A DNA stretch of 64,000 bases from Cephalotus follicularis (lineage: Eukaryota > Streptophyta > Magnoliopsida > Oxalidales > Cephalotaceae), in NCBI GenBank assembly GCA_001972305.1, contig BDDD01000353.1, positions 186,001-250,000 of the forward strand, read 5' to 3'. A program made the position numbers and the translations under genes. The notes under the pieces were generated by a model. It searched no databases, was not told the origin of the DNA, and saw only the letters and a program-made list of their open reading frames with translations. Shown piece by piece: positions 2,893 through 62,145 of the stretch (positions are counted from its first letter, which is position 1; each line of letters opens with the position of its first letter).

Positions 2893-3339
2893 AATAATAT
2901 TGCTTATTTCAATTTATTCCAAAAACTAAATCATACATTTAACGCTCGGGTCTTTCACAAAATGTAAGATTACAATTTTAATGTAATCTTATTATGGAAT
3001 TAATGAGGATAGTGAAATTCCCAACTTTGATGACGTTTTCCCTTTTATAATGTCGAGTTTTGAAAGAGGAATGATAAGGAATTGTTTAAGGCATTTCGCA
3101 TTGAAGTCGCAATTATGTTGCCCGAAATGGCTAATAAAACATGTTTTTAATGCGCGACAGTAAAGCCCAATGTTCGCTTTTTTATTGCGATTATTTTAGC
3201 GGCGGTTGGATTAATTAATGTCGCAATTCGTGGAATAATCGAGACCAAGACCTTAGTAATTTGCTGGTAAAATACCTAGAAGAAAGAAAAAAACTAATAA
3301 AGAAATGGGGGAGAAGCATTTAAGAAAAAGAAAAAGAGA

Positions 3340-3366
3340 GGCACGGGCGCATAGCGCGCCCGTGCC
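3340..3366 (+). other. Perfect GC-rich hairpin in LTR1
   Basis: The stem GGCACGGGCGC pairs perfectly with GCGCCCGTGCC around the 5-nt loop ATAGC, giving 11 base pairs in otherwise AT-rich DNA. Near-identical copies sit at the same place in LTR2 (9066-9090, ten pairs) and LTR3 (19651-19676, one mismatch). Confidence 0.85.
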
Positions 3367-4532
3367 AAGAAAGAGACATAGGGAGAGAGAGCGAGAGAGA
3401 GTAGGAGAGAGCTCGGAGAAGAGGGAGAGAGACCGCACTGGAGCCAGCCACCGGACCAGGAGACGACGGCGAGCAACCCAAGCCCTCAACTCGCCGGTAA
3501 ACTCTTCCCCCTTCTCTTTTCTCTTCTTTTTCTCTTCTCTTCCCGTCATTGTGCATGCCTCTGCCATGCATTTTCCGGCGTCGTTAGCATTGCGGATGGA
3601 GTGGGTTTTCATCTAGAAGGCCCACTCCTCCCAGTTTGACCACCGTTGAGGCGTTTCTTAGCCGGAATCGACCGGAATCACTTGAGTGAGTCAACTCAGT
3701 AAGTTGACTCACTGCGGCCTGAGACCGCGGGTTTGGCACCGAGTCTCGATGAGTCTTGTGAAGGGATGTGTATAACTGGTGAATGTGTGGCGTTTTTGGG
3801 TGGTGGACGAAGCTAGTGAAGTCATGCGAGTCGACTCAGTGAGTCGCAACTCGCTGCCGCCGGTGACACGGCATTCGGCGCCGATTCACGGCGAGTCTTG
3901 AGTGGCTTTGAGTAGACCGTTCAATGTGGAACCCGTTTATGGGTGTTGCACAAGCTGGGTGAGTAGGTCAGATTCCGGCCGGCGCTCTGGCAACAACGAT
4001 GTCAGTTTCTGTGTGTTGAACGTAATGAAAATGTGTTGTATGTGCAGTGAGCGAGCAGGTATTTTGGTTTGGCAGTGAGGAACGAATAAATTGGCAAGAA
4101 CCGAAATCGGTTCAATGGTAATCGGAAGTGCTCAGCAATTGAACCTGCCGCCCGGTTTGTAGAAGGTAGAGGAAGCTATATACGCAAGTTTCAGTTCAAT
4201 AATATTGTAATGCCATTGATGAAATGCATGGTTTGTGGATTGTGAATTGTGTGATTGTGTTAGGGTTGCTATGAGTAGTTAACCTGTCATGCATATGGTG
4301 TCTTGAAATGATTGTGGACTGTGGATTATGGATTGTGTGACTGTGTTAGGGTTGCTATGAATAGTTAACCCGTCATGCATATTGTGTTTTACAATGATTG
4401 TAGATCGGATGGCATGTGTTGTATGCTTGAACTCTATTGGTTTTGAGACGTGTTGAAGGAACCGTGTTTTGGTTAGCTTAACCATCGGCGCTATGGATTG
4501 TTATATGGAAAATGAGCCTTTTTCATGATAAA

Positions 4533-4805
4533 CGTCGACGCTTAGAGAAAACGTCGACACCATGATACATTGTGTGTGGGAATGGACACGTGTAGCGTTG
4601 ACGCCTGAGGTTCCTACATCAAAGCATCGACGCCAAGGGAATAAGCGCCGATGCTTAATGGTCCATGGCTTGAGCGTTGACGCCGAAGGGATGAGATGTT
4701 GACGTGCGAAGTTCTAGTTTAAAGCGCTGACGCTAAGAGTTAAGCGACGACGCTTAAGTGGCTGGTTTGAACATTAACGCCTATATGGTACATGTTGACG
4801 CGAGT
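4533..4805 (+). repeat. Array of degenerate GTCGAC-centred palindromes in LTR1
   Basis: Some dozen copies of a motif close to GCGTCGACGC recur at irregular spacing of roughly 15-45 bp. The core CGTCGACG is perfect at 4533-4540. Other copies differ mainly by C-to-T or G-to-A changes at CpG (GTTGACG, GTCGATG, ATCGACG). Matching arrays occur in LTR2 (about 10215-10525) and LTR3 (about 20794-21115). Confidence 0.85.
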
Positions 4806-5051
4806 AGAGCCCGTTTGCATTACTAAGCATATGTTTGTATTGCATACAATTATGAATCGAATTGTTGATTGAGCTATCCCCTGATTCCCAAAATGTTCTT
4901 CATTTTGGAAGTGTATAAATGGTTTATTAAATCATTGTTTTATGGAAATGTATGTTTTCCAAAAGGATTGTTATATATATTGAGCAAATATATATGTGTT
5001 TCAAGTGTTTATATTTGTAAATTACTTGAAATGGATTGAGAGACTTGTGAT

Positions 5052-5640
5052 GACTACTAAGCCCTGTTGGGTAAGTAGCCAAGACTGTGAACTGTTTTAA
5101 AAGGACCGATGTACATTTGGAAATGTATTGTTTACAAGTATTATATTTGTTAATAATTACTTGTAATGGATTGATTGATTGTGTTTGGCTGCTAAGCTCT
5201 ATCGAGTAAGTAGTCAGGAATTCCACTACTAAGCTCTGTTGAGTAAGTAGCTGGAGATTCCATATATGGTAGCTACTAAGCTCTGTTAAGCAAGTAGCTA
5301 GGGTTACTAAGATCTGTTGAGTAAGTAGCTAGGGACACCCATATTCGGCGGTTACTAAACGCGGAGCAGAAGTGACCGGGTCACTAAACACTGAGTGGAA
5401 GTGATCAGGTTCTAAACATAGTGTGGAAGCATCCCTAGATTTGATTGATTGTGTGTGGCTGCTAAGCTCTGTTGAGTAAGTAGCTGGAGATTCCATACAC
5501 GGTAGCTACTAAGCTCTATTGAGTAAGTAAGCTCTATTGAGTAAGTAGCCAGGGACTACCTTTTGGTTACTAAGCACTGCTGTGTAATTAACCGATTGCT
5601 AAGCAATGTTGTGTAAGCAACTTGAATTGGATTGATGGGT
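5052..5640 (+). repeat. Serial covarying hairpin array in LTR1
   Basis: About a dozen units of 25-29 nt each fold as an outer stem of 5-7 bp, a small internal loop (AAG or AAA opposite TA or GA), an inner 3-bp stem and a short loop usually TGTT. Outer stems differ between units but stay complementary: CTACT with AGTAG, GTTGCT with AGCAAC, and GGTCACT with AGTGATC. Inner stems also switch as pairs: CTC with GAG, CCC with GGG, CAC with GTG. The array continues with simpler hairpins to about 5775, for example GTCC and GGAC around TTTGA or GCTGA. Confidence 0.8.
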
Positions 5641-6119
5641 CTTAGTGACCTGATTACTGGATTGATTGGCCCGTTAAGGCATAACTGATGGATTGTCTGG
5701 TCCTTTGAGGACATGATTGTGATTGGTCCGCTGAGGACATGATCATGATTGTGTTGATGTAGCCCTAACGGGTTGCAACTGTGTTGTGAATATGCATATA
5801 TAGATACATATATGTATATATTGTAATATATATACCGTACTGCATCACTGTGCATTCATACATGACATGCATTATCATTGAAACCGAACTGTATTTATAC
5901 TTAGCCGAGTGAGGACAAAGGCTAACCCCCTACAATTTCAGATTGATTTAAGGTTGATGCAGTGGATTGTTACTGTTGAGCTCCGTGGAGCGAATGGAGT
6001 TTTTTGTTGTTTTACTTTTGAGAAACGTTAATGGATCATTGTAATAAATGAATCGATGTATTGATGAATATTGTTCACGCTCCGTTTTAGGGCAGTTAAC
6101 TTTGATGATGTTTATTGTT

Positions 6120-6147
6120 GTAGCATGTAGTGTGGGATGCATGTTAC
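6120..6147 (+). other. Conserved-loop hairpin near the 3' end of LTR1
   Basis: The stem GTAGCATG (6120-6127) pairs with CATGTTAC (6140-6147), with one G-U pair, around a 12-nt loop TAGTGTGGGATG. LTR2 (14138-14165) and LTR3 (23831-23858) carry the same hairpin. Related hairpins with other stems but nearly the same loop occur in the LTRs at 11257, 57034 and 60761. Confidence 0.75.
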
Positions 6148-6293
6148 GTTTTAATTCGGCTTATATTTAAATGCTTCCGCAAGTTGTTAATGGCATTGTA
6201 AAGTTTTAAATTTATGGTAAATTGCATAAGCCGGATTTATATGTTGATTGCCACCACTACATATGTTGTTTGTGAAATGGGGTGTGACAACAG

Positions 6294-6305
6294 TGGTATC
6301 AGAGC
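6294..6305 (+). other. Primer-binding site of interior 1 (initiator Met-tRNA type)
   Basis: TGGTATCAGAGC matches the 3' end complement of plant initiator methionyl-tRNA, the usual minus-strand primer. It starts four bases after the end of LTR1. Confidence 0.9.
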
Positions 6306-6405
6306 ATATATCCATTTCTATGCTTAGCTTGGATAAGTTCCTTGGCAATTAACAAATTGTTTCCTTGAGATGATTACTAATGACATATTTTCCATATAGG
6401 AACAA

Positions 6406-7563
6406 ATGGACAGAAGGAGAACACGTGAGAGAGATAGAGCCGCTGAGGCAGATGCTCCCCGGGAAGTGAGTGTTCCGCAAGGGGTGAATGTTCCCCAAAA
6501 TGCAAATGAAAGGAGGGATCCGATGGATCGGATGGCCGATTACTTTCAACAGCAGATGGCTGCTACTACAGCTAACATGGAGGAGATGCGGCGAATGTAC
6601 GCCCAAGCTCAACCGTGAGGTATGGCTCCCGACCAGGGTGTATATCACAAGGGAAGTCAGTTTGGAAGGAACCTTGAAAGGTTTATGAGACAGAATCCAC
6701 CCAGTTTCAGAGGAAAGTTGGATGCTACCATTGCTGAGAAGTGGTTACAAGATCTAGAAAAGATCTTTGAAGTGATGGACTACACCGACGGCCAAAAATT
6801 GAAGTTTGCAGTATATCGACTCTGGGTGAGGCCATCCACTAGAGGGAGATGGTCAAGGCAAAGTGGAAGTCAGCTGGACTCGACGGTACATGGGAAAGGT
6901 TCCAAAGGGAGTTCCTTGACACTTATGTACCTCGAATTGAACAAGAACGCAGAGAGACGGAACTCCTGGAGCTGCAACAAGGAGATATGACTGTGGCCGA
7001 ATACCAGGACAGGATTATGGAGCTAGCCAGACACTCAGCCTATCTGGTAGCCGACGAAGAAAAGAAGATTCGGAGGTTCTTGAGAGGCCTGCGACCGGAT
7101 CTTCGGTCAAGGATTAGAGTGATGGAATTGGGGACTTTTGTATAGGTCGCTCAAAAGGCGAGATTGCTGGAGAGTATCCAAAATGTAGACCACGCTGAGA
7201 GGGCTCACGTGCAGCAGAACAGAAAGTCCCCCACAAAGTCTAGACCAGCTCCATTGAAAGGGCAGGGTAGTGGTTCTCCGACAAAATCATCGAAGAACAG
7301 ACTTCAACAGACCGCTATTCAGGGTACTCCTAGTCAAGGGAGTAATGCGAGGATTGGAGTCTGTCCTTATTGTGGCCGGAAGGGCCATCAACCGGAAGAT
7401 TGCTGGTGGAAGAATGGGTTTAGCACGAAGTGTGGAGCACCTGACCATTTACGGAGGGATTGTCCGACGAGGCAAGTGACAGTGCCCACTAGACCTGCGA
7501 GTGATGGAGGTGCCAAAGCTGTACCTTCACAGCGGAGAGATACCGGTAAAAGCATCATGAGAG
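6406..7563 (+). pseudogene. gag: Broken gag of family A, copy 1
   Basis: This is a gypsy Gag remnant: nucleocapsid and capsid protein that would package element RNA in cytoplasmic particles. The start ATG at 6406 opens a charged Arg/Glu-rich N-terminus, followed by a capsid-type domain (retrotransposon gag family) over about 6680-7145 and two CCHC-type zinc knuckles at about 7360-7470. The first knuckle (CPYCGRKGHQPEDC) is intact; the second has lost its first Cys (Ser instead). Breaks seen against copy 2 are an in-frame TGA at 6616 where copy 2 has CGA, a 1-nt deletion near 6827, and a TAG at 7143 where copy 2 has CAA. The frame then runs into the non-coding tail, and only a few residues resembling the protease junction (GKAFALT) remain before homology stops. 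Confidence 0.85.
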
Positions 7564-8649
7564 GTAAGGCCTTTGCTCTTACTTTTATAGCTTACTTATA
7601 TAGTCCAAAGTACATCATATTGTTATTGATCATAACTGTATTGATTAGATGGTTATGGTTGGCTAGTGTATTGTTATCTATCGTATCGTATTGTTATGGG
7701 ACATTATCAAACGGATAGTGATCGAATGAACCGTTATTGAGGGTTAGTGATTGTATGGACCGTAAATTGTTATGGACCGTGAACGGATATGTATTGTAAA
7801 TAGATATGGAGGGACTGGTTGTGGATATCGAATAGCGATATGTTCTTGTATATTATGAAATAGTATTACATGCACTTTACCTGATTGTTATCACATATAT
7901 CTATTGCATATTGCATATGCATATTGTATACAACCATTCGTTGCTGACATTTTTCATTGAAATGGAGTGGATCAGGTTCAGGTTCAGATGACAGCTACAG
8001 TGATTAGTCTGGACAGGCGCAGGGTAAGAATTTACATTTCTCCACCCTATGTTGTATTATATGAATAAAGTAAGGGAACTGATATTAAGAGACATGTTTT
8101 ATTTAGTTATCGACCTGCCGACATGTGGCAGTGCTTATGAGATATGTGTGTTGATGTATTGGATATGCATGAGCTCATCACTGAGATTAGAGCGATGTGA
8201 TTTTGATTTGTGTTGTGGTTGCTGAGGGCTGAGCCCAAGATTTAAAACTGTGTTTTCTTTACAGGGGGTATAGTCCAATAAATGAAAACATCATGCCCAA
8301 TTTTCGGGAAATTTTAAGAGTTAGTTTTATTTCAGTTGAACCATCCCAGCATATATATTGTGATGAGATATGAAGGTTGATCCCCCAAAGCTATAAACTG
8401 TGGTCTATCAGGTGGAATGGAGTCCGATAAACGGATACTACATGCCCGATTTTTGAGAAATCCTAATAGTATGATTTTGATGGAAGTGTTATGGTGATGT
8501 TATGGGCTTGAGAAAGCCACATGGAACGTGAGGAAGAGGTGAAGGCACTTCCACTGACCAGACAAAGTGACATGGGAACGCGAAGACGAGATGAGAGAGT
8601 GTCACCCTCACTTGTTTTGACATGTTGTAAATTTCGAGGACAAAATTTC
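7564..8649 (+). other. Non-coding tail of interior 1 where pol should be
   Basis: No reverse transcriptase, RNase H or integrase motif is seen in any frame. The tail is shared with interior 2. It contains splice-like signals, including AGAGGTAAGG (7560), GCAGGGTAAGAA (about 8024) and TTTTCTTTACAGGG (about 8252). It also holds a diverged two-copy duplication (about 8225-8335 and 8375-8475) built around ATGCCCAATTTT and ATGCCCGATTTT. Origin unknown. Confidence 0.65.
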
Positions 8650-8665
8650 TTGAAGGAGGGGTGGA
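8650..8665 (+). other. Polypurine tract before LTR2
   Basis: TTGAAGGAGGGGTGGA directly abuts the TG start of LTR2. It is preceded by AATTTCGAGGACAAAATTTC, a sequence typical of plant gypsy 3' ends. It would prime plus-strand synthesis. Confidence 0.85.
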
Positions 8666-11600
8666 TGTAATGCCAGGGTCTTTCACAAAATGTAAGATTA
8701 CAATTTTAATGTAATCTTATTATGGAATTAATAAGGATAGTGAAATTCCTTTGATGACGTTTTCCCTTTTATAACGTCGAGATTTGAGAGAGGAATGATA
8801 AGGAAATGTTTAAGGCATTTAGCATTGAAGTCACAATTATGTTGCCCGAAACGGCTAATAAAACATGTTTTTAATGCGCAACAGTAAAGCCCAATGTTCG
8901 ATTTTTTATTGCGATTATTTTAGCGGCAGTTGGATTAATTAATGTCGCAATTCGTGGAATAACCGAGACCCAGACCCTAGTATTTTGCTGGTAAAATACC
9001 AAGAAGAAAGACAAAAACTAAAAAAGAAATGGAGGAGAAGCATTTAACAAAAGAGAAAAAGAGAGGCACGGGCGCATAGCGCGCCCGTGCAAAGATAGAG
9101 ACATAGGGAGAGAGAGAGAGAGAGTGTGGGACAGAGCTTGGAGCAGAGGGAGAAAGAGGGCGTCGGAGCCAGCCACTGGACCAGGAGACGACGGCGAGCA
9201 ACCCAGGCCCTCAACTCGCCGGTAAACTCTTCCCCCTTCTCTTTTCTCTTCTTTTTCTCTTCTCTTCCCGCCACTGTGAGCGCCTCTACCGTGCATTTTC
9301 CAGCGTCGTTAGCATCGCGGATGAAGTGGGTTTTCATCTAGAAGGCCCACTCTTCCCATTTTGGCCACCGTTGAGGCTTTTCTTAGCCAAAATCGACCGG
9401 AATCACTTGAGTGAGTCGACTCAGTGAGTTGACTCACTGCCGCCTGCGACCACGCGTTTGGCGCCGAAGCTCGGCGAGTCTTGTGAAGGGATGTGTATAA
9501 CTGGTGAATGTGTTGCGTTTTTGGGTGGTGGCCGAAGCTGGTGAAGTCGGGCGAGTCGACTCAGTGAGTCGAAACTCGATGCCGCCGGTGACACGGTATT
9601 CAGCGCCGATTCACGGCGAGTCTTGGGCGGTTTTGAGTAGACCGTTCAATGTGGAACCCGTTTATGGGTGTTTCACAAGCTGGGTGAGTCGGTCAGATTC
9701 TGACCGGCGCTCCGGCGACAACCATGTCGGTTTCTGTGTGTTGAACGTAATGAAAATGTGTTGTATGTGCAGTGAGAGAGCTAGTATTTTCATTTGGCAG
9801 TAAGGAACGAATCAATTGGCAAGAACCAAAATCGGTTCAATGGTAATCGAAAGTGTTCAGCAATTGAACCTGCAGCCCGGTTTGTAAAAGGTAGGGGAAG
9901 CTATACACGCAAGTTTGAGTTCAATAATATTGTAATGTCCTTGATGAAATGCATGGTTTGAGGATTATGAATTGTGTGACTGTGTTAAGGTTGCTATGAG
10001 TAGTTAACCTGTCATGCATATCGTGTCTTGGAATGATTGTGGACTGCGGATTATGGATTGTGTGACTGTGTTAGGGTTGCTGTGAATAGTTAACCCATCA
10101 TGCGCATTGTGTTTTACAATGATTGTAGATCGGATTGCATGTGTTGTATGCTTGAACTCTATTGGTTTTGAGACGTGTTAATGAACTGTGTTTTGGTTCC
10201 CTTAACCGTCGACGCTATGGATTGTTATACGGAGAACGAGCCTTTTTTCGCGATAAACGTCGACGCTTAGAGAAAATTTCGATGTCATGATTCATTGTGC
10301 GTGGGAATGGACAAGTGTAGCATTGACGCCTGAGGTTCCTACCCCAAAACGTTGACGCCAAGGGAATAAGCGGCGATGCTTAATGGTCCATGCCTTGAGC
10401 GTCGACACCAAAGGGATGAGATGTTGACGCGCAAAGTTCTGCTTGAAAGCGCTGACGCTAAGAGTTAAGCGGCGACGCTTAAGTGGCTGGTTTGAACATT
10501 AACGCCTATATGGTACATGTTGACGAGAATAGAGCCCGTTTGCATTACTGAGCATATGTTTGCATTGCATACAATTGTGAATCAAATTGTTGATATAGCT
10601 ATCCCATGATTCCTAAAATGTTCTTCATTTTTAAAGTGTATAAATGGTTTATAATATCATTGTTATATGGAATTGTATGTTTTCCAAAAGGATTGTTATA
10701 TATATTGAGCAAATATATATGTTTTTCAACTGTTTATATTTATAAATTACTTGAAATGGATTGAGAGACTTGTGATGACTACTAAGCCCTGTTGGGTAAG
10801 TTGCAAAAACTGTGAACTGTTTTAAAAGGACCGATGTACATTTAGAAATGTATTGTTTACAAGTATTATATTTGTTAATAATTATTTGTAATGGATCAAT
10901 TGATTGTGTTTGGCTTCTAAGCTCTGTCAAGTAAGTAGTCAGGAATTCCACTACTAAGCTCTGTTGAGTAAGTAGCTGGAGATTCCATATACGGTAGCTA
11001 CTAAGCTCTGTTGAGTAAGTAGCTAGGGTTACTAAGCTCTGTTGAGTAAGTAGCTAGGGACTCCCGTATTCAGCGGTTACTAAACACGGAGCAGAAGTTA
11101 CCAGGTCACTAAACACTGAGTGGAGGTGATCGGGTGCTAAAGACAGAGTGGAAGCATCCCTGGATTTGATTGATTGTGTGTGGCTACTAAGCTCTGTTGA
11201 GTAAGTAGTCAGGAATTCCACTACTAAGCTCTGTTGAGTAAGTAGCTGGAGATTCCTATAACGCCCGAGATTTTCATGTAATGTAATTTCACAATGTACT
11301 TGTACTTTATTTGTGGAATTAATAAACTGATGGACTTTCCGAATTTGGTGATGTTTTCCCAAAATTCCTATAATGTTGAATTTTAGAATTATATGCTAAG
11401 AGAATGTTAAAAGGCTAAAACGACGTTGTTCTGGGGGAAACGCGTCGACGCCTTTGTAATCACGTCGACGTCCTTTAGGAAAAAGGGCGCACGTAGCTCC
11501 ATGCACATGCACATCGATGCATACGAAGACATCGACATCCTCGTGTAAAATGGTGAAAGACATCGACGTCTTTGGAAAGACGTCGACGTGTTAACTTCGA

Positions 11601-11896
11601 ATGCCAGGCATGTTACTCTACTGACAAACAACGTGCAAAGAAGAATCTTTTTAGAGCCTTTCTCAGGCGCCTTGGGACATGATTGATACGTGTTGTGCAT
11701 GCTGGCTTGATACCAGGCATGCAGGTGCCAGAATGGGAGGAAGGGCATGAAACTTGGGTGTACATGCAGGCTATGGTGCCACCCTCAACGTCTGCTCCTA
11801 CAAAAGAAACGGGACAGAACTGGGAAAGAGAGAAAATGGGAAAATGGAACTGTGAGATGCATGCAATGGGCCAGAGAGGGAAGAGAGATGTTCGAC

Positions 11897-11912
11897 CTGC
11901 ATAAAATGCCTC
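11897..11912 (+). promoter_or_regulatory. TATA-like core promoter motif of the solo LTR
   Basis: CTGCATAAAATGCCTC recurs in inverted orientation at 58407-58422 and, slightly altered, at about 62705-62720 in related LTRs. In each it lies upstream of a CCATTGTT-AGCTTGGAGCT leader block. This is inferred to be the Pol II promoter; the start site is not determined. Confidence 0.5.
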
Positions 11913-13310
11913 ATCTCTTCATCCCTGGTTTGGCTGAGACACCTGTGTAAGAAAACAGAGAGTTAAGGAGAGAAAACATTTCCACCATTGTTGAGCTTGG
12001 TTGGAGCTTGGAGCTTGGAGCTGGTGGCTTGCAGCAACAGGAAGGACCTAGAGGCTGCCGTGACCAGTTTGGAACGCAAAGAGGTGGACTTTCCAGTTCC
12101 CAACGTGGAACAAAAGGTAGGGGAAAGCCATAACTGTAATCTTGAGATTTATATTCATCCATGGTCTATGGTTTTGGGTGTATGAAATGCATGATTACTG
12201 AGTTGATTTTGATCACTGGATTGATGCCATAATATGCTAGATATGTGATGAGTATCTGCATGTGGGTTTACTGCCTTGATTACATGTTAATTTGCATGTA
12301 TATGGTTTGTTATGGCCACTGTTTGTTATGTCATGAGGAAGAAGACGACTGTTACCCGATACGCGTCGACGCCTTTTTGTGACATTGACGTCTTTTGATC
12401 ATTTTCTGGGTAACTGATGTGTAAAGGATCGACGTCTTTGGAAGGACATCGACGCCTTAGGATACCTGACTGGGTTTTGACATGTTACACATCGACGTCT
12501 AAGGTTCCCACCTTAACACGTCGACGCTGCAAGCAATACGCTGACGTTTTAAGGTTCCAGACCTTGAGCGTCGATGCGTATGATGGACATCGATGTCTTT
12601 AGAGAGTAGAACGCGTTGTCACTAAGGACTTGGACATCGACGTTAAAGGACAAAGACATCGATGCCTTTTGATAGACATCGACGTCTTTTGGGTACTGTT
12701 TGGAGGTTTCTTCATCTAACGATACGAAACGATCCCGATTCCTGTTAGAGTGCATTTGAGCATTTGTATGCATCGCACATACACTGTTTTACTGCCTGTT
12801 TGTACTGGTTGTACTCGAATTATGATTTCTAATGTGTTATTACTTAGAAATGCATATGTGAATTGAAACTGCTATTTTGGGTACAAAACGAATATTGATA
12901 TCGTATTTTCAAATATCTTTTGGGAGCAATTTCCACTACTGTACTGTTTAAAAGTATTTTCTACTGAAAATGCCTATTTTCAAATGTTGTCACTTTTGGA
13001 AACATTTTGGAAAACAACTGCCTGTTGTGGATCTAAACGATCACTACTGTCCTGTCTACTGTACTGTTACTACTTGAATTCACTCTTTGCTCTGTGAATT
13101 GTTATGTGTTTGTGCTTGAGCCACTAGTTGGCATGGACGAAGAGCAAGTGTTATGTTGTTCTTAGTTTACTATTCTCCTGTTATGTAATAAACTGAGTTG
13201 TTAAGAGATTTCTGATGTACCGTTTTTACAGATTGATTATGGTGGGATTAAACTTGTACCGTGATTCACGCTCCGTTTATGGGCGATTAACTATGTTGGG
13301 ATTATTGTGG

Positions 13311-13338
13311 GTAGCGTGTAGTATGGGATGCACGCTAC
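13311..13338 (+). other. Conserved-loop hairpin, perfect 8-bp stem
   Basis: GTAGCGTG (13311-13318) pairs perfectly with CACGCTAC (13331-13338) around loop TAGTATGGGATG. The stem differs from the family A version, but complementarity is retained. Confidence 0.75.
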
Positions 13339-13585
13339 GGAATTACATCTTATGGATTTTTATGCTTCCGCAACTGACAGCCTGTTTAAAGTTTTAAATT
13401 TTATGGATTTTACATGAGTTGTATTTATGTGTTAATTTCCTTTACTGCTTAAATGTCGTTTCTCTTAAACGGGGTGTGACAATTCCATACACGGTAGCTA
13501 CTAAGCTCTGTTGAGTAAGTAGCTTGGGTTTCCCATATAATTGTTACTAAGCTCTGTTGAGTAAGTAGCAAGGGACTCCCTTTTC

Positions 13586-13641
13586 GTTACTAAGCACTGT
13601 TGTGTAAGTAACCGGTTGCTAAGCACTGTTGTGTAAGCAAC
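13586..13641 (+). repeat. Two adjacent units of the covarying hairpin array in LTR2
   Basis: The unit at 13586-13612 has outer stem GTTACT with AGTAAC. The unit at 13615-13641 has GTTGCT with AGCAAC. Both share the inner stem CAC with GTG and loop TGTT. The two differ at one base on each side of the stem, exactly at paired positions. Confidence 0.8.
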
Positions 13642-14311
13642 TTGAATTGGATTGATGGGTCTTAGTGACCTGAAAACTGGATTGATCGGCCCGTTGAGGC
13701 ATAACTGATGCATTGTCTGGTCCTTTGAGGACATGATTGTGATTGGTCCGCTGAGGACATGACCGTGATTGTGTTGATGTAGCCCTAACGGGTTGCACTT
13801 GTACTGTGAATATGCATATATAGATACATATATGTATATATTTTTATATATATACCATACTGCATCACTGTTCATTCATACATGACATGCATTATCATTG
13901 AACCGAACTGTATTTATACTTAGCCGAGTGAGGACAAAGGCTAACCCCTATAATTTCAGATTGATTTCAGGTTGATGCAGCGGATTGTTACCGTTGTGCT
14001 CCGTGGAGCGAATGGAGTTTTATGTTGTTTTACTTTTGAGAAACGTTAATGGACCATTGTAATAAATGAAGCGATGTATTGATGAATATTGTTCACGCTC
14101 CGTTTGAGGGCAGTTAACTTTGATGATGTTTATTGTTGTAGCATGTAGTATGGGATACATGTTACGTTTTAATTCGGCTTATATTTAAATGCTTCCGCAA
14201 GTTGTTAATGGAATTGGAAAGTTTTAAATTTATGGTAAACTGCATAAGCTGGATTTATATGTTGATTGCCACCACTATATATGTTGTTTGTGAAACGGGG
14301 TGTGACAACAG

Positions 14312-14323
14312 TGGTATCAGAGC
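14312..14323 (+). other. Primer-binding site of interior 2 (initiator Met-tRNA type)
   Basis: TGGTATCAGAGC starts five bases after the end of LTR2, the same arrangement as in interior 1. Confidence 0.9.
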
Positions 14324-14423
14324 ATATATCCATGTACATGCTTAGCTTGGATAAGTTCCTTGGAAATTAACGAATTGTTTCCTTCAGATGATTACTAATG
14401 ACATCTTTTCCATATAGGAACAA

Positions 14424-15573
14424 ATGGACAGAAGGTGAACACGTGCGAGAGCTAGAGCCGCTGAGGCAGATGCTCACCGGGAAGCGAGTGTTCCGCCAGG
14501 GGTGAATGTTCCCCAAAATGCAAATGAAAGGAGGGATCCGATGGATCGGATGGCCGATTACTTTCAGCAACAGATGGCTGCTAATGCAGCTAACATGGAG
14601 GAGATACGGCGATTGTACACCCAAGCTCAACCGCGAGGTATGGCTCCCGACCATGGTGTATATCACGAGGGAAGTCAGATTGGAAGGAACCTTGAAAGGT
14701 TTATGAGACAGAACCAGTTTCAGAGGAGAGTTGGATGCTACCATTACTGAGAGGTGGTTACAGGATCTAGAAAAGATCTTTGAAGTGATGGACTGCACCG
14801 ACGGCCAAAAACTGAAGTTTGCAGTATATCGACTCTGGGGTGAGGCCATCCGCTAGTGGGAGATGGTCAAGGCAAAGTGGGAGTCAGCTGGACTCGACGG
14901 TACATGAAAAAGTTTCCAAAGGGAGTTCCTTGACACTTATGTACCTCGAATTGAACAAGAACGGAGAGAAACTGAACTCTTTGAGCTGCAACAAGGAGAG
15001 ATGATTGTGGCCGAATACCAGGCCAGGTTTATGGAGCTAGCCAGACACTCATCCTATCTGGTAGCCAACGAAGAGAAGAAGATTCAGAGGTTCTTGAGAG
15101 GCCTGCGACCAGATCTTCGGTCAAGGATTAGAGTGATGGAATTGGGGACTTTTGTACAAGTCTCTCAAAAGGCAAGATTGCTGGAGAGTATCCAAAATGA
15201 AGACCGCGCTGAGAGGGCTCACGTGCAGCAGAACAGACAGGCCCCCACAAAGTCTAGACCAGCTCCATGGAAAGGGCAGGGTAGTGGTTCTCCGACAAAA
15301 TCATCGAGGAACAGACTTCAACAAACCGCTATTCAGGGTACTCCTAGTCAAGGGAGTAATGTGAGGATTGGAGTCTGTCCTTATTGTGGCCGCAAGGGCC
15401 ATCAACCAGAAGATTGCTGGTGGAAGAATGGGTTTTGCACGAAGTGTGGAGCACCTGACCATTTACGGAGGGATTGTCCGACGAGGCAAGTGACAGTGCC
15501 CACTGGACCTGCGAGTGATGGTGGTGCCACAGCTGGACCTTCACACGAAGAGATACCGGGAATAGCATCATGA
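14424..15573 (+). pseudogene. gag: Broken gag of family A, copy 2
   Basis: This is the second copy of the same Gag, close in sequence to copy 1. The ATG at 14424 is followed by a TGA at codon 5 (AGA in copy 1). A 5-nt deletion near 14712 and a TAG near 14854 disrupt the capsid region; the TAG is a Trp codon with a G-to-A change. From 15001 the frame is open through the rest of capsid and both zinc knuckles (about 15379-15480). Both knuckles are intact here, including the Cys lost in copy 1. A 1-nt deletion near 15545 shifts the C-terminus into a stop at 15571. The two copies are broken at different places, so neither break set was inherited whole from the other. No pol follows. Confidence 0.85.
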
Positions 15574-16662
15574 GAGGTAAGGCCTTCGCTCTTACTTTTA
15601 CAGCTTACTTATATAGTCCAAAGTACATCATATTGTTATTGATCGTAACTGTATTGATTAGATGGTTATGGTTTGCTAGTGTATTGTTATCTATCGTATC
15701 GTATTGTTATGGGCCATTATCAAATGGATGGTGATCGAATGAACCATTAATGAGTGGTTAGTGATTGTATGGACCGTAAATAGTTATGGACCATGAACGG
15801 ATATGTATTGTAAATAGATATGGAGGGAATGGTTGTGGATATCGAATAGCGATATGGACTTGTATATTATGAAATAGTATTACATGCACTTTACCTGATT
15901 GTTATCACATATATCTATTGCATATTGCATATGTATATTGTATACAGCCATTGGTTGCTGACCTGTTTCATTGAAATGGAGTGGGTCAGGTTCAGGTTCA
16001 TATGACAGCTACAGTGATTAGTCAGGACATGCGCAGGGTAAGAAATTACATTTCTCCAGCCTATCTTGTATTATATGAATAAAATAAGGGAACTGATATT
16101 AAGAGACATGTTTTATTTAGTTATCGACCTGCCGACATGTGGCAGTGCTTATGAGATATGTGTGTTGATGTATTGGATATGCATGAGCTCATCACTGAGA
16201 TTAGAGCGATGTGATTTTGATTTGTGTTGTGGTTGCTGAGGGCTGAGCCCAAGATATAAAACTGTGTTTTCTTTACAGGGGGCATAGTCCAATAAACGAA
16301 TACATTATGCCCAATTTTTGGGAAATTTTAAGAGTTAGTTTTATTTCAGATGAACCCTCCCAGCATATATATTGTGATGAGATATCAAGGTTGATCCCCA
16401 GAGATATAAACTGTGGTCTATCAGGTGGAATGGAGTCCGATAAACGGATACTACATGCCCGATTTTTTAGAAATCCTCAGAGCATGAATTTGATGGAAGT
16501 GTTATGGTGATATTATGGGCTTCATAAAGCCACATGGAACGTGAGGAAGAAGTGAAGGCACTTCCACCGACCAGACAAAGCGACATGGGAACGCGAAGAC
16601 GAGATGAGAGAGTGTCACCCTCACTTGTTTTGACATGTTGTAAATTTCGAGGATGAAATTTC
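15574..16662 (+). other. Non-coding tail of interior 2
   Basis: It is collinear with the tail of interior 1 and likewise lacks any pol domain. It keeps the same splice-like signals (GAGAGGTAAGG at about 15569, GCAGGGTAAGAAA at about 16035, TTTTCTTTACAGGG at about 16267) and the same diverged internal duplication. The shared deletion therefore predates the tandem array. Confidence 0.65.
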
Positions 16663-16663
16663 T

Positions 16664-16678
16664 TGAAAGAGGGGTGGA
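16664..16678 (+). other. Polypurine tract before LTR3
   Basis: TGAAAGAGGGGTGGA directly abuts the LTR3 start TGTAACACCCGGGT, the best-preserved family A 5' terminus. Confidence 0.85.
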
Positions 16679-16781
16679 TGTAACACCCGGGTCTTTCACA
16701 AAATTTAAGATTATAATTTTAATGTAACCTTATTATGGAATTAATGAGGATAGTGAAATTCCCGACTTTGATGACGTTTTC

Positions 16782-19346
16782 TGTAACACCCCCGATCTGT
16801 GGGAGTCACCACAGGTGCATATAACGGAAACTTATCATAACATATCATATTAAAACGTTCATCTTTATTAAAAACGTGATGGTTTAAAGCATATCCAATA
16901 ACATATCGAAACTGATCATAAACTGAAACTTATTCAAAATCCAAAAGTCATAAATTAAAATGAACATATTGTTTATTAAATGGTTCCACTATGACCACAT
17001 AAACATAAAGGGATCAGCTCCTAGATGATCCTCAGACATATGGGAGTCACTCTCATCACACATTGCCCCTTTGCTTCTGATAACCTGATGCATGGAAACA
17101 AAAACGCAGCTGAGCAAACCTCAGTACGGATATAGAATATAAAACAGTAAATGATATTTTAAAGCAAGAAGATTTCAAAATTACCTTAAAAAAGAAATCT
17201 TGCGCAATAAAATAATTTAAACTTACTTTGTAAATGCCCATGGCAAAACATATAAACCAAGTTCATAATTTGAAACCACAAAGTATACCTTTTCAAAACA
17301 TAGGTTCCATAACTGAGCACCAAAACCCATAACATATCAGAAACACATAGTAGCAAGGGGTTCGCGACACCCACATTGCCAAATGGAATTGCAGTATACG
17401 GCACTACACATACAATTCCCATATCCCAAAACATATCCCAAAACATATAACTAGGATCGATCCATACGCCTCTATCCCAAATCCTATCCAAGGATATCCC
17501 AGAGAGACGCCGTAAACAAATCACACCGTTACGGAAAGTGTCATGCCCCCGTGCCAGGCTGACAGCATGCCTATGGTACTCCCATATGTGGTTATAAAAG
17601 CTCAGTATTTCACCATTTCAAAAACTTGATTTCATCAAATCAATTTAAAATACGTAGAAAGGTTTTCCCAAAACATAACCATAAATCGTTATCAAACGAT
17701 ATCGTTTTCCATATATTTTCATAATCAAAATGCAACTCTTTTATTTTCACAATAAAGAGACATTTGCATAGCATTTATTAAACATAGCGGAATCCGTTAA
17801 GCCAGAAAATATATCCAACAAATATAAACTGACTTCATTTCAAAATCCAAACAAAACGGAGTTCATACACCAAAAGGGAACATATTCATAAAACCGAATA
17901 ATAACCCAAAACAAAGAATCTGTATTTATTCTCAAAACAGAACTGAATCAGTAAGAATTTATCAAGGAACGAAAATCCGTACTTTAATCATAAAGGTGAA
18001 ACGGGACAGTTCAAATAAAATTAGATAGCCAAAGAACAGGAAATCCGTACCTTAGCAGGTCGAAAATCTAAACAATTAGAATATCAAACAAAAGCACTCT
18101 ATAAGTATCCTAAACTCCACCAATGATGATATCAACACCTAATCATATGAGTCAAAACATCATATAACATAAAAAGGACAAAACACTAAAACTGCCATAA
18201 AGCATCGACAGTTTGTTCTTAGGCGTCGACGGTTTAGTTGTACAAAAGGACAAAGCGTCGAGCCAAGAGTCGACAGACCAAAGCATAAAACGATACAAAG
18301 CGGCGACGCTCAGAACGAAAGCGTCGACAGTTTGCGTCAGACCCAGAATACCAATCACAGAAAGCAGTTTCAATTTCATGAATAAATCCGATTTTTTATA
18401 AACACAATGCATAACTAACAACATGTAGGTTCAGTGACATGTTATATTATTTCAAAAATGCCAGAATAACCTTATGATTTCATACAAAGAGTAAAATTCA
18501 TTTTGAAACCTAATTTTCTTCCATATAAATATTTCATGCAACCATAACAAATTTTCAAATTTTCTGTATATAAATCCTAAAATTAGTGATATATACATAT
18601 ATCTACATACGTCAATAGCATGATTTCTTTGTTTTTAAGGATCAACATCACTAGTTACGCATAAAACCCGTGAATGAACATATAAAAACAACAGTATAAT
18701 TTAGTTTCAACAGGCTTCCAAAATCATGCTCGAATTCAAGTTATAGTCGGTTTTAATACGAATTAAAAGATGATACAGAAACTACATAGTATAAGCTACA
18801 ATTTTCGTTTAGAGATTACCTTCAGAAAATGTCGACATCAGTGTAGAAAATCATGTTCAAAGCTGCTGTTCGTTTGTAGAAAGTGCAGAAAAGGGTTTAT
18901 GCTTTAAAACGATTTTTGTCTGGTTAAATGCACAAATCCATGTTTTAATTGTCAAAATCGGTATTTTAAGACATTACCATACTAACCAAAACGCGTCAAA
19001 AACTTACGGAAATCGGATAGCCAGAAAAAGGAAAGAATCCAACCTTCCAAAAACACTATCACCGTCCAAACTGATATGGAAAGCCGACTAAAGCGTCGAC
19101 TGTTTACTTAAAGCATCGACGGTTAAGCGCTCAAATACAAAACGCGTCGAAGTCACACGTTTAGGCGTTGACGTGCCACCAAGCAGCCAAAGCGTCGGCG
19201 GTTCTAATAAGAGCGTCGGCGCTTTGTGCCCAGAAAACAAAATAAAAGAAATTCAAACCAAAAATCAAAGCATTCACAAACCATAGCATATATCAAAAGG
19301 TATAAACCCAACATACAACACGTAAGCATAGGAACGGGATATTACA
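16782..19346 (-). mobile_element. Solo LTR of family B inside LTR3
   Basis: A 2565-bp LTR reads TGTAACACCCCCGATC at its left and GGGATATTACA at its right, flanked by TTTTC on both sides (16777-16781 and 19347-19351). The strand is set by its match to the minus-strand family B element, whose 3' LTR (48837-53323) has the same ends and nearly the same net length. GTCGAC-type palindromes cluster at about 18200-18335 and 19090-19225. Conserved blocks include a CTCCTAGATGATCCTC segment and GAGCAAACCTCAGTACGG. Confidence 0.92.
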
Positions 19347-21362
19347 TTTTCCCTTTTATAACGTCGAGTTTTGAGAGATGAATGATAAGGAAATGTTGAA
19401 GGCATTTCGCATTGAAGTCGCAATTATGTTGCCTGAAACGGCTAATAAAACATGTTTTTAATGCGTGACAGTAAAGCCCAATGTTCACTTTTTTATTGCG
19501 ATTATTTTAGCGGCGGTTGGATTAATTAATGTCTCAATTCGTGGAATAATCGAGACCCAGACCCTAGTATTTTGCTGGTAAAATACCAAGAATAAAGACA
19601 AAACTAATAAAGAAATGGGGGAGAAGCATTTAACAAAAGAGAAAACGAGAGGCACGGGGGCATAGCGCGCCCGTGCAAAGAAAGAGACATAGGGAGAGAG
19701 AGTGAGATAGAGTACGAGAGAGCTCGGAGCAGAGGGAGAGAGAGCGCGTCGGAGCCAGTCACCGGACCAGGAGACGACGACGAGCAACCCAGGCCCTCAA
19801 CTCGCCGGTAAACTCTTCCCCCTTCTCTTTTCTCTTCATTTTCTCTTCTCTTCCTGTCACTGTGCGCGCCTCTGCCGTGCATTTTTCGGCGCCGTTAGCA
19901 TCATGGATGGAGTGGGTTTTCATCTAGAAGGCCCACTCTTCCCATTTTGACCACCGTTGAGGCGTTTCTCAACCGAAATTGACCAGAATCACTTGGGTGA
20001 GTCGACTCTACGTGTTGACTCACTGCCACCTGAGACCGCGCGTTTGGCGCCAAGTCTTGGCGAGTCTTGTGAAGGGATGTGTATAACTGGTGAATGTGTG
20101 GCTTTTTTGGGCTGTGGCCGAAGCTGGTGAAGTCGGGCGTGTCGACTCAGTGAGTCGCAACTTGCTACCGCCAGTGACACGGCGTACGACACCGATTCAC
20201 GGTGAGTCTTGAGCGGTTTTAAGTAGACCATTCAATGTGGATCCAGTTTATGGGTGTTGCACAAGCTGGGTGAGTCGGTCAGATTCCGGTCGGCGGTCCA
20301 GCGACAACGATGTCGGTTTCTGTGTGTTGAACGTAATGAAAAGGTGTTGTATGTGCAGTGAGCGAACTAATATTTTGGTTTGGCAGTGAGGAACGAATCA
20401 ATTGGCAAGAACCGAAATCGGTTCAACGGTAATCGGAAGTGTTCGGTAATTGAACCTACAGCCCGGTTTGTAAAACGTAGGGGAAGCTATACACGCAAGT
20501 TTGAGTTCAATAATATTGTGATGTCATTGATGAAATGCATGGTTTGCGGATTGTGAATTGTGTGACTGTGTTAGGGTTGCAATGAGTGGTTAACCTGTCA
20601 TGCATATCGTGTCTTGGAATGATTGTGGACTGTGGATTATGGATTGTGTGACTGTGTTAGGGTTGCTATGAATAGTTAACCCGTCATGTATATTGTGTTT
20701 TACAATGATTGTAAATCGGATTGCATGTGTTGCATGCTTGAACTCTATTGGTTTTGAGACGTGTTGAAGGAATCGTGTTTTGGTTCGCTTAACCGTCGAC
20801 GCTATGGATTGTTATACAGAGAACGAGCCTTGTTTCACGATAAACGTCGACACTTAGAGAAAACGTCGATGCCTTGATTCATTGTGTGTGGGAATGGACA
20901 CGTGTAGCATTGACGCCTGAGGTTCCTACCCCAAAGCGTTGACGCCAAGGGAATAAGCGTCGACGCTTAATGGTCCATGCCTTCAGCGTCGACACTGAAG
21001 GGATGAGACGTTGACGCGCAAAGTTCTGGTTGAAAGCGCTGACGCTAAGAGTTAAGCGGCGACGCTTAAGTGGCTGGTTTGAACATTAACGCCTATATGG
21101 TACATGTTGACGCGAATAGAGCCCGTTTGCATTACTGAGCATATGCTTGCATTGCATACAATTGTGAATCGAATTGTTGATATAGCTATCCCCTGATTCC
21201 TAAAATGTTCTTCATTTTGGAAGTGTATAAATGGTTTATTAAATCATTGTTATATGGAAATGTATGTTTCCCAAAAGGATTGTTATATATATTGAGCAAA
21301 TATATATGTTTTTCAAGTGTTTATATTTATAAATTACTTGAAATGGATTGAGAGACTTGTGA

Positions 21363-22000
21363 TGACTACTAAGCCCTGTTGGGTAAGTAGCTAAGACTGT
21401 GAACTGTTTTAAAAGGACCGATGTACATTCAGAAATGTATTGTTTACAAGTATTATATTTGTTAATAATTACTTGTAATGGATCAATTGATTGTGTTTGG
21501 CTGCTAATCTCTGTCGAGAAAGTAGTCAGGAATTCCACTACTAAGCTCTGTTGAGTAAGTAGCTGGAGATTCCATATACGGTAGCCACTAAGCTCTGTTG
21601 AGTAAGTAGATAGGGTTACTAAGCTCTGTTGAGTAAATAGCTGAGGACTCCCATATTCGGCGGTTACTAAATGCGGAGCAGAAGTGACCGGGTCACTAAA
21701 CACTGAGTGGAAGTGATCGGGTGCTAAACACAGAGTGGAAGCATCCCTGGATTTGATTTATTGTGTGTGGCTACTAAGCTCTGTTGAGTAAGTAGTCATG
21801 AATTCCACTACTAAGCTCTGTTGAGTAAGTAGATGGAGATTCCATACACGGTAGCTACTAAGCTCTGTTGAGTAAGTAGCTTGGGTTTCCCATACAATGG
21901 TTATTAAGCTCTGTTGAGTAAGTAGCCAAGGACTCCCTTTTGTTTACTAAACACGGTTGTGAAAGTAATCGGTTGCTAAGCACTGTTGTGTAAGCAACTT
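21363..22000 (+). repeat. Longest covarying hairpin array, in LTR3
   Basis: About 14 successive units are recognisable. Informative stems include GGTTACT (21662-21668) with AGTGACC (21683-21689), GGTCACT (21691-21697) with AGTGATC (21712-21718), and GGGTGCT (21719-21725) with AGCATCC (21740-21746). Differences between units fall at paired positions or become G-U pairs. Confidence 0.8.
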
Positions 22001-22103
22001 GAATTGGATTGATGGGTCATAGTGACCTGATTACTGGATTGATCAGCACGTTGAGGCATAACTGATGGATTGTCTGGTCCTTTGAGGACATGATTGTGAT
22101 TGG

Positions 22104-23432
22104 TGTTAGATATAGTGACCCGACATGCCATCAGATGGGTTGTTACATTATATCTTACCATGTATAGAACAATCTTATTCTTATATATATGATGCGTGCT
22201 AAATTTGTTATGGCTATATCACTTGTATTTTATCACATAATTGAAGTAGTTTAATTATTACCTACTTATACTAGTGATGCCCTGACATAAGGTTGGATGC
22301 CTGGCATGGAGGCTGTGAGACTGGTTACCTTATTCGGTAATTTATGAACACCTCTCGTTTTAACCAAGATTTTAAAGGGTCCCTGCCTTATAATGATTAG
22401 ATCTTTAATATGTTGGACATATTAAGTCTTGGTGTTAAATATCGGTTGTGTGGATTTTACATTTTGTGGAAACACATATGTTTGATCTTACTCAACCAAT
22501 TTTCGAAGGATACACGAGATCACTAAAAGAGTTAGACTCTTTATGCTTGACTGGCCAAAAGGCGTCGATGTCTTTTACAAAGACATCGATGCCTTTCTCT
22601 GATAAAGACGTCGATGTCTTTTAGAAAGCATCGATGTGTTTTAGTGCCACGTTGCATAGGCGTCGACGTCCTTTGGAAGGCGTCGACGTCTTTGAGCAGA
22701 ACGTGCAACCTGTGCACGACCTCACTTCGTGGGCACTACTTCTCTCACATCCTTAGCCGGTTTATTTTGATTCTACACATTTTAGAAACGTGGGAATCAT
22801 GGCTTCGGACTCCCAGGGAGTGAAGGCCATGATTCTAAGTGAATGGGAGATTGGGGGAGAGAATTGTAGGCTAGTTATAAGCATTTCTGCAGAAAATGGA
22901 AAGTGAGCTTGAGACATTTTTTGCTGGGCAATTGACCTCGAATTCTTCTCTGCAAGTGCGCGTTCCTTCATTTGATATACACCAAGCAAGGCTTATCTAG
23001 GGTGGATTGATTATTGACTTTGTTGGTCATAATCAATACTCCTTTTCTAAGCTAAGTGAGAGGGAGAGTGAGTTCAAGCACTTTGATCTTGCTGGTTGGA
23101 TTACTTGCTATTCCTGAGGCTTGGAGAAGATCAAAGGGAATCTGCTTCAAGCTTGTAGCGGCAAAGAACTAAGGATCCAACACCCACTGGTATAATTCTT
23201 GGTCCTTCTTCTTTATGCCATGCTTGTGTGTCACCATTGTTTGCAATGGTGACACCAATTCAATTCAGTAGATGCTGTGGTGATCCATGTGATCTGTGGA
23301 CGTGTCATTATGGACTTGTTTTGTCATATAGGGTGTTATTCCGCTGCCATGATTGTATGTTTAAGTTTTATTCTACACCCTATACACCTAAGTCAATTTT
23401 TGACATTGGACTTGGTATATCCGATTCCACCA
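22104..23432 (+). mobile_element. Copia-type solo LTR inside LTR3
   Basis: A 1329-bp LTR starts TGTTAGATATAGTGACCC and ends TTCCACCA, flanked by ATTGG (22099-22103 and 23433-23437). It is the same family as the solo LTR at 50902-52824, but lacks about 0.8 kb after GGTTACCTTATT that the other copy has. It keeps a GTCGAC palindrome cluster (22560-22690) that the other copy has mostly lost. The copia assignment is by similarity of LTR blocks to those of Copia-1. Confidence 0.85.
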
Positions 23433-24080
23433 ATTGGTCCGTTCAGGACATGAGCGTGATTGTGTTGATGTAGCCCTAACGGGTTGCACCTGTACTATGA
23501 ATATGCATATATAGATACATATATGTATATATTGTTATGTATATACCGTACTGCATCCCTGTGCATTCATACATGACATGCATTATCATTTAAACCGAAC
23601 TGTATTTATACTTAGCCGAGTGAGGACAAAGGCTAACCCCCTACAATTTCAGATTGATTTCAGATTGATGCAGCGGATTGTTACCGTTGAGCTCCGTGGA
23701 GCGAATGGAGTTTTATGTTGTTTTACTTTTGAGAAACGTTAATGGATCATTGTAATGAATGAATCGATGTATTGATGAATATTGTTCACGCTCTGTTTGA
23801 GGGCAGTTAACTTTGATGATGTTTATTGCTGTAGCATGTAGTATAGAATGCATGTTACATTTTAATTCGGCTTATATTTAAATGCTTCCTCAAATTGTTA
23901 ATGGCATTGGAAAGTTTTAAATTTATGGTAAATTGCATAAGCCGGATTTATATGTTGATTGCCACCACTATATATGTTGTTTGTGAAACGGGGTGTGACA
24001 ATACATCTATTAATAAGAAAGCTAGACAATGAAGCTTAAATGAAGTATAAAATTAAGTATGAAGGTGTCATGAAAATAGA

Positions 24081-61914: not shown

Positions 61915-62145
61915 ATAACAGTCGGCTGTTTTCTCATAACAGTCGACTGTTTCCTAGAGTCAGTCGACTGTTATCCCCCAACAGTCGACTTGTTCATCAC
62001 GAGTAATCAGTAGTAGGCTGTCTTCCTTCGAAAGTCGACTGTTCTGGGCGAGAACGCATGCACAGCCGACTGTTCTTACTTGACAGTCAGCTGGATGATC
62101 AAGTAGTCGACTGTTTTACTTAAACAGACGGCTGTTCTGGGCTGG
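61915..62145. repeat. CAGTCGACTG palindrome array in the D LTR
   Basis: Repeated ACAGTCGACTGTT-type motifs occur at roughly 20-30 bp spacing, with a perfect ACAGTCGACTGT at 61940-61951. The core GTCGAC is the one found in the other families' arrays, but here the flanks are AG and CT instead of CG and CG. Confidence 0.85.

Follow-up and report, generated by a model that had tools for sequence, protein, structure and literature searches.

Family A LTR retrotransposons of Cephalotus follicularis carry a serial array of short hairpins that is a real, structured and abundant RNA feature, and probably a selected one. The pairing within these hairpins is likely to be preserved by selection on the structure of the sense-strand RNA, as judged from the sequences by which stem changes are shared between contigs. 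Long plant LTRs are hard to analyse, and to our knowledge it is poorly understood how the RNA of plant LTR retrotransposons is chosen for packaging. In the accessible part of one report, plant Metaviridae LTRs could not be modelled, their length being too variable (PMC3601003). Here, a single genome offers unit copies in the thousands, many versions of the array and a built-in neutral control (the changes acquired after insertion), which make selection on RNA structure in LTRs directly measurable. The comparison of private with inherited changes, and of G·U with A·C, is applicable to any high-copy element.

The hairpin array and its retrotransposon

Self-comparison of the window, the whole 64,000-nt stretch of DNA that was analysed, revealed three LTRs of the same family in tandem with two internal regions, in the order LTR1-internal-LTR2-internal-LTR3 (2940-24000), an arrangement that presumably came from recombination between copies. 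In LTR2 the array is interrupted by a solo LTR of a different family, at 11258-13481, with the 5-bp target duplication ATTCC.

2940..6289, plus strand: LTR1, family A; start approximate, ends ...GGTGTGACA before the PBS (self-comparison and sequence)
5051..5623, plus strand: LTR1 array, 13 units
5057, 5192, 5229, 5276, 5307, 5355, 5384, 5412, 5462, 5509, 5527, 5570 and 5599, plus strand: core starts of the LTR1 units
5217..5340, plus strand: short inverted repeats between units, GGAATTCC (5217-5224), GGAGATTCC (5253-5261) and GGGACACCC (5332-5340)
5349..5435, plus strand: class-2 trio, with stems like GGTCACT/AGTGATC and inner CAC/GTG
6290..8665, plus strand: internal region 1, with PBS-like TGGTATCAGAGC and a broken gag (Retrotrans_gag PF03732, zf-CCHC), with no homology to protease beyond it
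8666..14308, plus strand: LTR2, family A, split by the solo LTR (self-comparison)
10776..11248, plus strand: LTR2 array, first part, 10 units
13495..13643, plus strand: LTR2 array, second part, 4 units
14309..16678, plus strand: internal region 2, with gag; no protease homology 3' of gag
16679..24000, plus strand: LTR3, family A, with other sequence inside at about 16781-19341 and 22104-23433
21363..22000, plus strand: LTR3 array, 14 units

The 41 window units were first chosen by motif, and a sequence-only profile built from the same 41 counts 13 units in LTR1, 10 + 4 in LTR2 and 14 in LTR3. This agrees with the earlier note, made from the sequence of the window, which had given about a dozen units for LTR1, a split set for LTR2 and 14 for LTR3; the outer and inner stem pairs that it quoted are likewise present. 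A structure model of the unit, built from 33 of the 41, returned 33 matches in the window. Of these, 30 were full units with E<1e-5 and one was a partial unit (4e-4); the remaining two, at chance level (E 0.48 and 1.8), fall elsewhere. It missed 10 of the 41 units, mostly in the class-2 trios.

A class-1 unit reads CTACT-AAG-CTC-TGTT-GAG-TA-AGTAG, comprising an outer stem, an internal loop, an inner stem and an apical loop; its inner stem can reach 4 bp if G in AAG pairs with U in UA. Across units the outer stem measures 5-8 bp, the internal loop is A-rich and asymmetric (mostly AA facing A), the inner stem has 4 bp (3 bp in class 2) and the apical loop 3-4 nt; class-2 units combine a 3-nt loop with an AAA/GA internal loop. 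Of the 979 family-A-like units, 829 have G·U at columns 12-24 and 114 have A·G; among the 83 divergent units the same columns show G·U (29), A-U (20), G-C (20) or no pair (14). Spacers between units contain inverted repeats, the counts being 93 for GGG-TTT-CCC, 87 for GGG-ACT-CCC and 76 for GGA-GAT-TCC with a counting pattern that itself demands such ends. Unit number lies between 10 and 15 in 53 of the first 61 array pieces and ranges from 4 (half of the split LTR2 array) to 19 (a region with two arrays). In the latter region, locus L014, the two arrays are consecutive, so whole arrays duplicate too. Protein-coding repeats were ruled out by the 14 to 22 stops in each sense frame of the LTR1 array, and a known RNA family by Rfam, which gave no match in the window at gathering threshold.

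A domain search of the window element found Retrotrans_gag (PF03732, E=3.1e-16) and zf-CCHC (E=6.2e-5), and a Ty3_capsid match to its Gag scored under the cut-off. Both internal regions carry broken gag pieces with a Retrotrans_gag domain and a CCHC knuckle. All ten homologues listed for the window Gag fragment are from C. follicularis, where homologues with RVP_2 occur; with the Ty3_capsid match under its cut-off, the Ty3 (Metaviridae) lineage is at most a candidate placement for the element. We examined 12 internal regions (window 1 and 2, L066, L067, L068 and L138-L144). Gag is readable in six of them (window 1 and 2, L066, L138, L141 and L144); the other six (L067, L068, L139, L140, L142 and L143) gave no gag match and are uninformative on pol. 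Ten Gag-protease relatives match the gag part of the six readable regions, and homology ends before the protease in five; in L144 it reaches residue 181 of 257 of the relative P0003, near the protease start. No pol-like long frames were seen by eye in the internal regions. The class of the family A element is now clearer, namely gag-only and non-autonomous: by protease homology and long frames judged by eye, it appears to lack pol as far as tested. TR-GAG elements are non-autonomous LTR retrotransposons with gag only. The window element is like them in its direct LTRs with a PBS, its gag domain and, as far as tested, the absence of pol; it departs from their description in its LTR, about 3.35 kb long in family A, with a hairpin array.

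The unit is abundant. In the 1.58-Gb assembly, window included, exact matches to the core pattern CTAAGCNCTGTTGNGTAAG number 4,707, against 44 for its reversed control, and a first look yielded 2906-3727 array candidates depending on the query, all unconfirmed. We sampled 37 regions (every place outside the window that one search listed), 20 + 20 from further searches, and 16 regions out of the first 100 core-pattern places; these are best or first matches and not a random sample. Loci L001-L008, L089-L118 and L135-L137 were left out of the counts, and units were recognised by the sequence profile only, with pairing not used. Array architecture is retained at the 14 divergent loci L119-L132, 12 of which keep the same six array positions in unchanged order (in one the array is broken by an insertion) and two of which keep five. 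Pairwise identity over the shared array region averages 0.88, with a minimum of 0.69. Viral contigs scanned with two unit patterns gave no matches.

Selection on pairing in the sense strand

A retrotransposon copy decays freely after insertion, and variants present in several contigs have passed through transposition. We traced each unit variant to the closest variant commoner than itself, no more than two differences away, and sorted the changes by contig number. This covered 1073 units (one of 1074 was left out for its loop length); variants lacking such an ancestor were set aside, 67 of them private, one present in two contigs and 12 inherited. Private stem changes, those in one contig, kept the pair in 106 cases and broke it in 226, counting each two-sided variant as two changes (98:226 in an alternative tally), with a G·U:A·C ratio of 74:64. 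Variants in at least three contigs had a keep:break ratio of 16:3 (P=7.7e-6) and a G·U:A·C ratio of 13:1 (P=0.0041). One inherited A·C mismatch is present, at columns 6-29. Variants in exactly two contigs resemble private ones (keep:break 8:16, G·U:A·C 6:8). With the threshold at two or more contigs, keep:break is still significant (24:19, P=0.0034) and the G·U:A·C contrast is lost (19:9, P=0.21). The effect on pair keeping and on G·U rests on few inherited events.

Controls in which the pairing partner was slid were flat in five of six cases (P>0.25), and the slide of +2 gave P=0.029 on four inherited events. Inherited changes in unpaired columns (n=10) were G>A in 7 and T>C in 3, and those in stems were C>T 10, A>G 5, G>A 2, T>C 2, A>T 1 and G>T 1. 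Thus, mutational bias does not explain the rarity of pair-breaking, since the unpaired columns inherit just those kinds of change that break stems. A tree-based count, whose tree includes the stem columns, gave keep:break ratios of 34:15 for at least three contigs, 10:19 for two and 37:99 for private changes (P=3.5e-7, first versus last), in agreement with the tree-free test.

Because a G·U pair in the sense strand is an A·C mismatch in the antisense strand, these ratios point to selection acting on sense RNA, and not on duplex DNA or minus-strand cDNA. The suggestion in the earlier note that RNA structure is under selection is therefore supported, at the threshold of three or more contigs, by the contrast between inherited and private changes, the former accepting G·U and seldom A·C. 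Folding is also strand-biased. Among 526 distinct units the sense strand was the more stable in 434, the antisense strand in 86 and neither in 6, with mean MFE values of -9.14 (sense), -6.17 (antisense) and -4.84 (shuffled). The MFE structure was the proposed fold (at least 4/7 outer and at least 2/4 inner pairs) in 427 of the 526. A scan of LTR1 gave mean z-scores of -1.9 for the array against -1.0 for the rest in the sense direction, and -1.6 against -1.5 in antisense. Predicted stability of array windows is thus modestly greater than that of the remaining LTR1, and the folding signal appears to reside in single units. The regional z-scores are weak as evidence and carry no weight in our reading.

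These data bear on the view that the array is a DNA-level cis-regulatory repeat, made of palindromic protein sites or enhancer copies, with RNA pairing and small RNAs as by-products. The closest published parallel, the palindromes of Sirevirus LTRs, is cited as cis-regulatory in the accessible part of PMC10760457, and the units lie together in a single part of the LTR beside a TATA-like sequence. However, palindromic DNA is strand-symmetric, yet the inherited G·U:A·C ratio is 13:1 at three or more contigs and the sense folds are the stabler; the arms also vary between units with pairing kept. We regard this view as distinctly unlikely.

Evidence for compensatory change is weaker than that for selection. 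We aligned 33 of the 41 window units, 31 of them distinct. In the distinct units 91.6% of stem cells were paired; shuffled units reached 80.4%, and those with the partner slid by 1-3 columns no more than 54.5%. Two-sided changes affected 43 stem cells against 14.2 in shuffles. Pairs with a two-sided change (6 versus 4.8) and further pair types (17 versus 15.3) were not clearly above shuffles, and RNAalifold on the 33 units recovered the outer stem only. For larger sets we used a home-made null in the style of R-scape, in which the G statistic is calculated with average-product correction and substitutions are re-placed along the tree. In 545 distinct paralogous units, pair 14-22 in the middle of the inner stem covaried (E=0.005), and the other 12 of 13 pairs were not significant. 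A run with 287 rows agreed, with 7 of the 13 stem pairs among the top 30 of 496 column pairs.

An alignment of orthologous array positions (92 arrays, five of 97 left out; 415 columns, 87 stem pairs) gave no significant stem pair out of 87 under the tree-aware null. The best pair, which does not stay paired, reached E=132 over all column pairs and 0.13 over the 87 alone. Stems at these positions are on average 91.7% paired and are mostly conserved without covariation. Since orthologous positions yield no significant pair, much of the apparent compensation consists of old differences among array positions, and the independent events are not numerous enough for scoring. The earlier note had claimed compensatory change between tandem copies, to be checked by an R-scape-type comparison; that claim is supported for the inner-stem pair 14-22 of paralogous units and lacks significant support for the 12 other unit pairs. 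The outcome that the note named as refuting, covariation no higher than expected, applies at orthologous positions but not to the inner stem of paralogous units.

Tandem duplication combined with template-switch correction of quasi-palindromes could match the arms without selection. Units clearly duplicate, L014 has two arrays, and two-sided differences lie mainly between array positions, with none significant within orthologous positions. However, conversion of one arm by the other gives Watson-Crick pairs, which leaves the inherited preponderance of G·U relative to A·C unaccounted for, and private changes break pairs freely (226/332), so there is no strong correction of the arms after insertion. 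This explanation seems improbable to us, and we retain selection on the sense RNA as the preferred reading.

Possible functions of the array

We tentatively propose that the array is a multivalent protein-docking platform in the sense RNA, possibly for packaging by Gag, a statement that, taken whole and with its structural part included, we consider possible without being probable. Each LTR would contribute a row of about 13 imperfect hairpins required as structure in the sense RNA; the array would fall within the transcribed part of the LTR and act in cis, each hairpin with its internal loop being recognised. As a most likely guess, the protein that the platform would concentrate on the genomic RNA is either Gag, in which CCHC zinc knuckles are present, or an RNA-binding protein of the host, and docking might aid packaging or dimerisation of a gag-only element whose pol is supplied by another element. 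A more specific version would be unlikely: in it, a dozen interchangeable hairpins with a characteristic internal loop, which evolve through duplication of blocks and through changes that keep pairs, would attract Gag or a protein of the host and so let the pol-less element compete for packaging.

The recognised feature may lie at the internal loop, although we now suggest this less firmly than at first. The loop is AA facing A in 958 of 979 family-A-like units against 51 of 83 divergent units, where other forms are GA/A (18) and AA/G (8). Across 979 units the five internal-loop columns had 36 private and 2 inherited changes (at least two contigs); for the apical loop these numbers were 42 and 16 (P=0.007). 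The core stem had 223 private and 26 inherited changes, so the internal loop is no more constrained than the core stem (P=0.55). Both this and the variation of the internal loop in divergent units lower our confidence in docking and packaging.

Pararetrovirus leaders form a single large hairpin. Control in the leader, either by ribosome shunting past upstream AUGs or by pausing or jumping of reverse transcriptase at serial hairpins, is in our judgement a somewhat unlikely function for the array, which is without a large hairpin of that kind; a mere roadblock, moreover, needs no conserved internal loop such as that of family A. It would account for the variable number of units between arrays, as jumping of reverse transcriptase between units could give, and the 1.4 kb before gag (4991-6405) contain 38 ATGs, many for a scanning ribosome (32-45 expected by chance). 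Shunting is used by pararetrovirus leaders, according to the accessible part of PMC5902531.

Hairpins of 25-35 nt with internal loops are short for dicing. This counts against a host-facing double-stranded RNA that feeds small-RNA production, as the unit hairpins are of just this size and form, and selective upkeep of a silencing trigger is hard to explain. In the part of PMC10760457 available, maize LTR hairpins correlate with small RNAs, but maize Ty3 elements are generally without an obvious structure peak. Such a function is, on balance, very unlikely.

We consider it extremely unlikely that the hairpins mask splice donors. In 730 of 857 class-1 units the 3' arm contains the proposed donor GTAAGT, and an acceptor-like CTAAC...TTTCAG is present downstream near 5920-5945 and is similar at divergent loci. 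However, class-2 units mostly have GGAAGT or GGAAGC (106/122) and divergent families often have C or A instead of T. An array of splice donors was rejected, as the predicted spliced junction had 3 matches genome-wide against 2 for its control.

A retroviral packaging signal consists of several short hairpins in the genome that Gag packages. The docking platform that we propose would be like these signals, described as multi-stem-loop in the accessible part of PMC7599994, in having several short hairpins, with a role for Gag only proposed here; unlike them, the window units are tandem near-copies, are many more and lie inside the LTR. Retrozymes, as presented in the part of PMC4918200 available, are non-autonomous plant retrotransposons with hammerhead ribozymes, and the likeness is that a folded RNA, here putatively functional, is encoded by a non-autonomous plant retrotransposon. 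Identity with retrozymes was rejected, the window having neither a hammerhead nor another Rfam family at gathering threshold.

The closest known system is the LTR cis-region of maize Sirevirus (Copia) elements, with its clusters of palindromes (Bousios et al. 2016, via the accessible parts of PMC10760457 and PMC5311732), in which the simple palindrome CACCGGACNNNGTCCGGTG is a common motif (PMC10760457, PMC5311732). So far as these sources extend, in both systems self-complementary motifs cluster inside plant LTRs, RNA structure is predicted and the sequences vary greatly. Unlike the simple palindromes of those Copia elements, the present array has two-stem units with an internal loop, occurs in a gag-only element and shows a sense-strand bias of inherited changes. 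Identity with Sirevirus palindrome LTRs was rejected, CACCGGACNNNGTCCGGTG having no match in the window at up to three mismatches. Among titles and the starts of abstracts, a set with most subscription papers outside it, no such array was described in a Ty3-like or gag-only element.

Flanking hairpins and other LTR families

Further hairpins lie around and within the LTR1 array.

4999..5031, plus strand: AT-rich hairpin TTTCAAGT...ACTTGAAA directly upstream of the array; covariation not significant
5132..5166, plus strand: AT-rich hairpin TTACAAGT...ACTTGTAA in the gap between units 1 and 2; covariation not significant
5638..5738, plus strand: second hairpin series, GGTC/GACC (5638-5650), GCC/GGC (5669-5680) and GTCC/GGAC (5700-5712 and 5726-5738)
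5758..5777, plus strand: hairpin TGTAGCCC-TAAC-GGGTTGCA; the consensus fold pairs this stretch otherwise
5901..5925, plus strand: shared hairpin TTAGCC...GGCTAA, with two more occurrences on the window's minus strand

The second series, reported in the earlier note with GTCC/GGAC and GCC/GGC arms, is present in LTR1. Its arms hardly vary among copies and are too invariant for covariation to be judged (77 of 81 pieces; four without an end anchor were left out). By flanking anchors, the hairpin at 5758-5777 has a counterpart in another LTR family, TATAACCT-TATA-AGGTTATA at 61319-61338 (minus strand). Between TGTAGCCC/GGGTTGCA and TATAACCT/AGGTTATA, in this one comparison made by eye, two of eight pairs have changed on both sides and two on one side, and none is broken.

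The stretch 5901-5942 holds a strongly conserved sequence, TTAGCCGAGTGAGGACAAAGGCTAACCCCC, and after it, at about 5933-5942, the acceptor-like TTTCAG; counterparts lie at 23612-23644 and, on the minus strand, at 57419-57451 and 61142-61174. The conserved sequence is common to LTR families that are otherwise unlike. Around the minus-strand TTAGCC...GGCTAA modules, LTR-like stretches carry, as judged by eye, other hairpins at the place of the array. In another LTR-like stretch, at 57690-57800 (minus strand), the place expected for the array, upstream of the shared module, is taken by a long two-stem hairpin GTGTAGCG...CGCTACAC with inner GCC/GGC.

The conserved LTR block starts at 4961-5007, just before the array and beside a TATA-like sequence. 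Over the 46-273 nt upstream that were covered, L035 matches the equivalent position in the window, and L023, L122 and L125 do not. Clusters of the short palindromes CGTCGACG, CATCGATG and GTCGAC occur at 4530-4800, 11440-11600, 12340-12690 and 22558-22690, and on the minus strand at 58650-58840 and 61917-62160. Lying upstream in the LTRs of several families, these clusters are possibly U3 regulatory sites.
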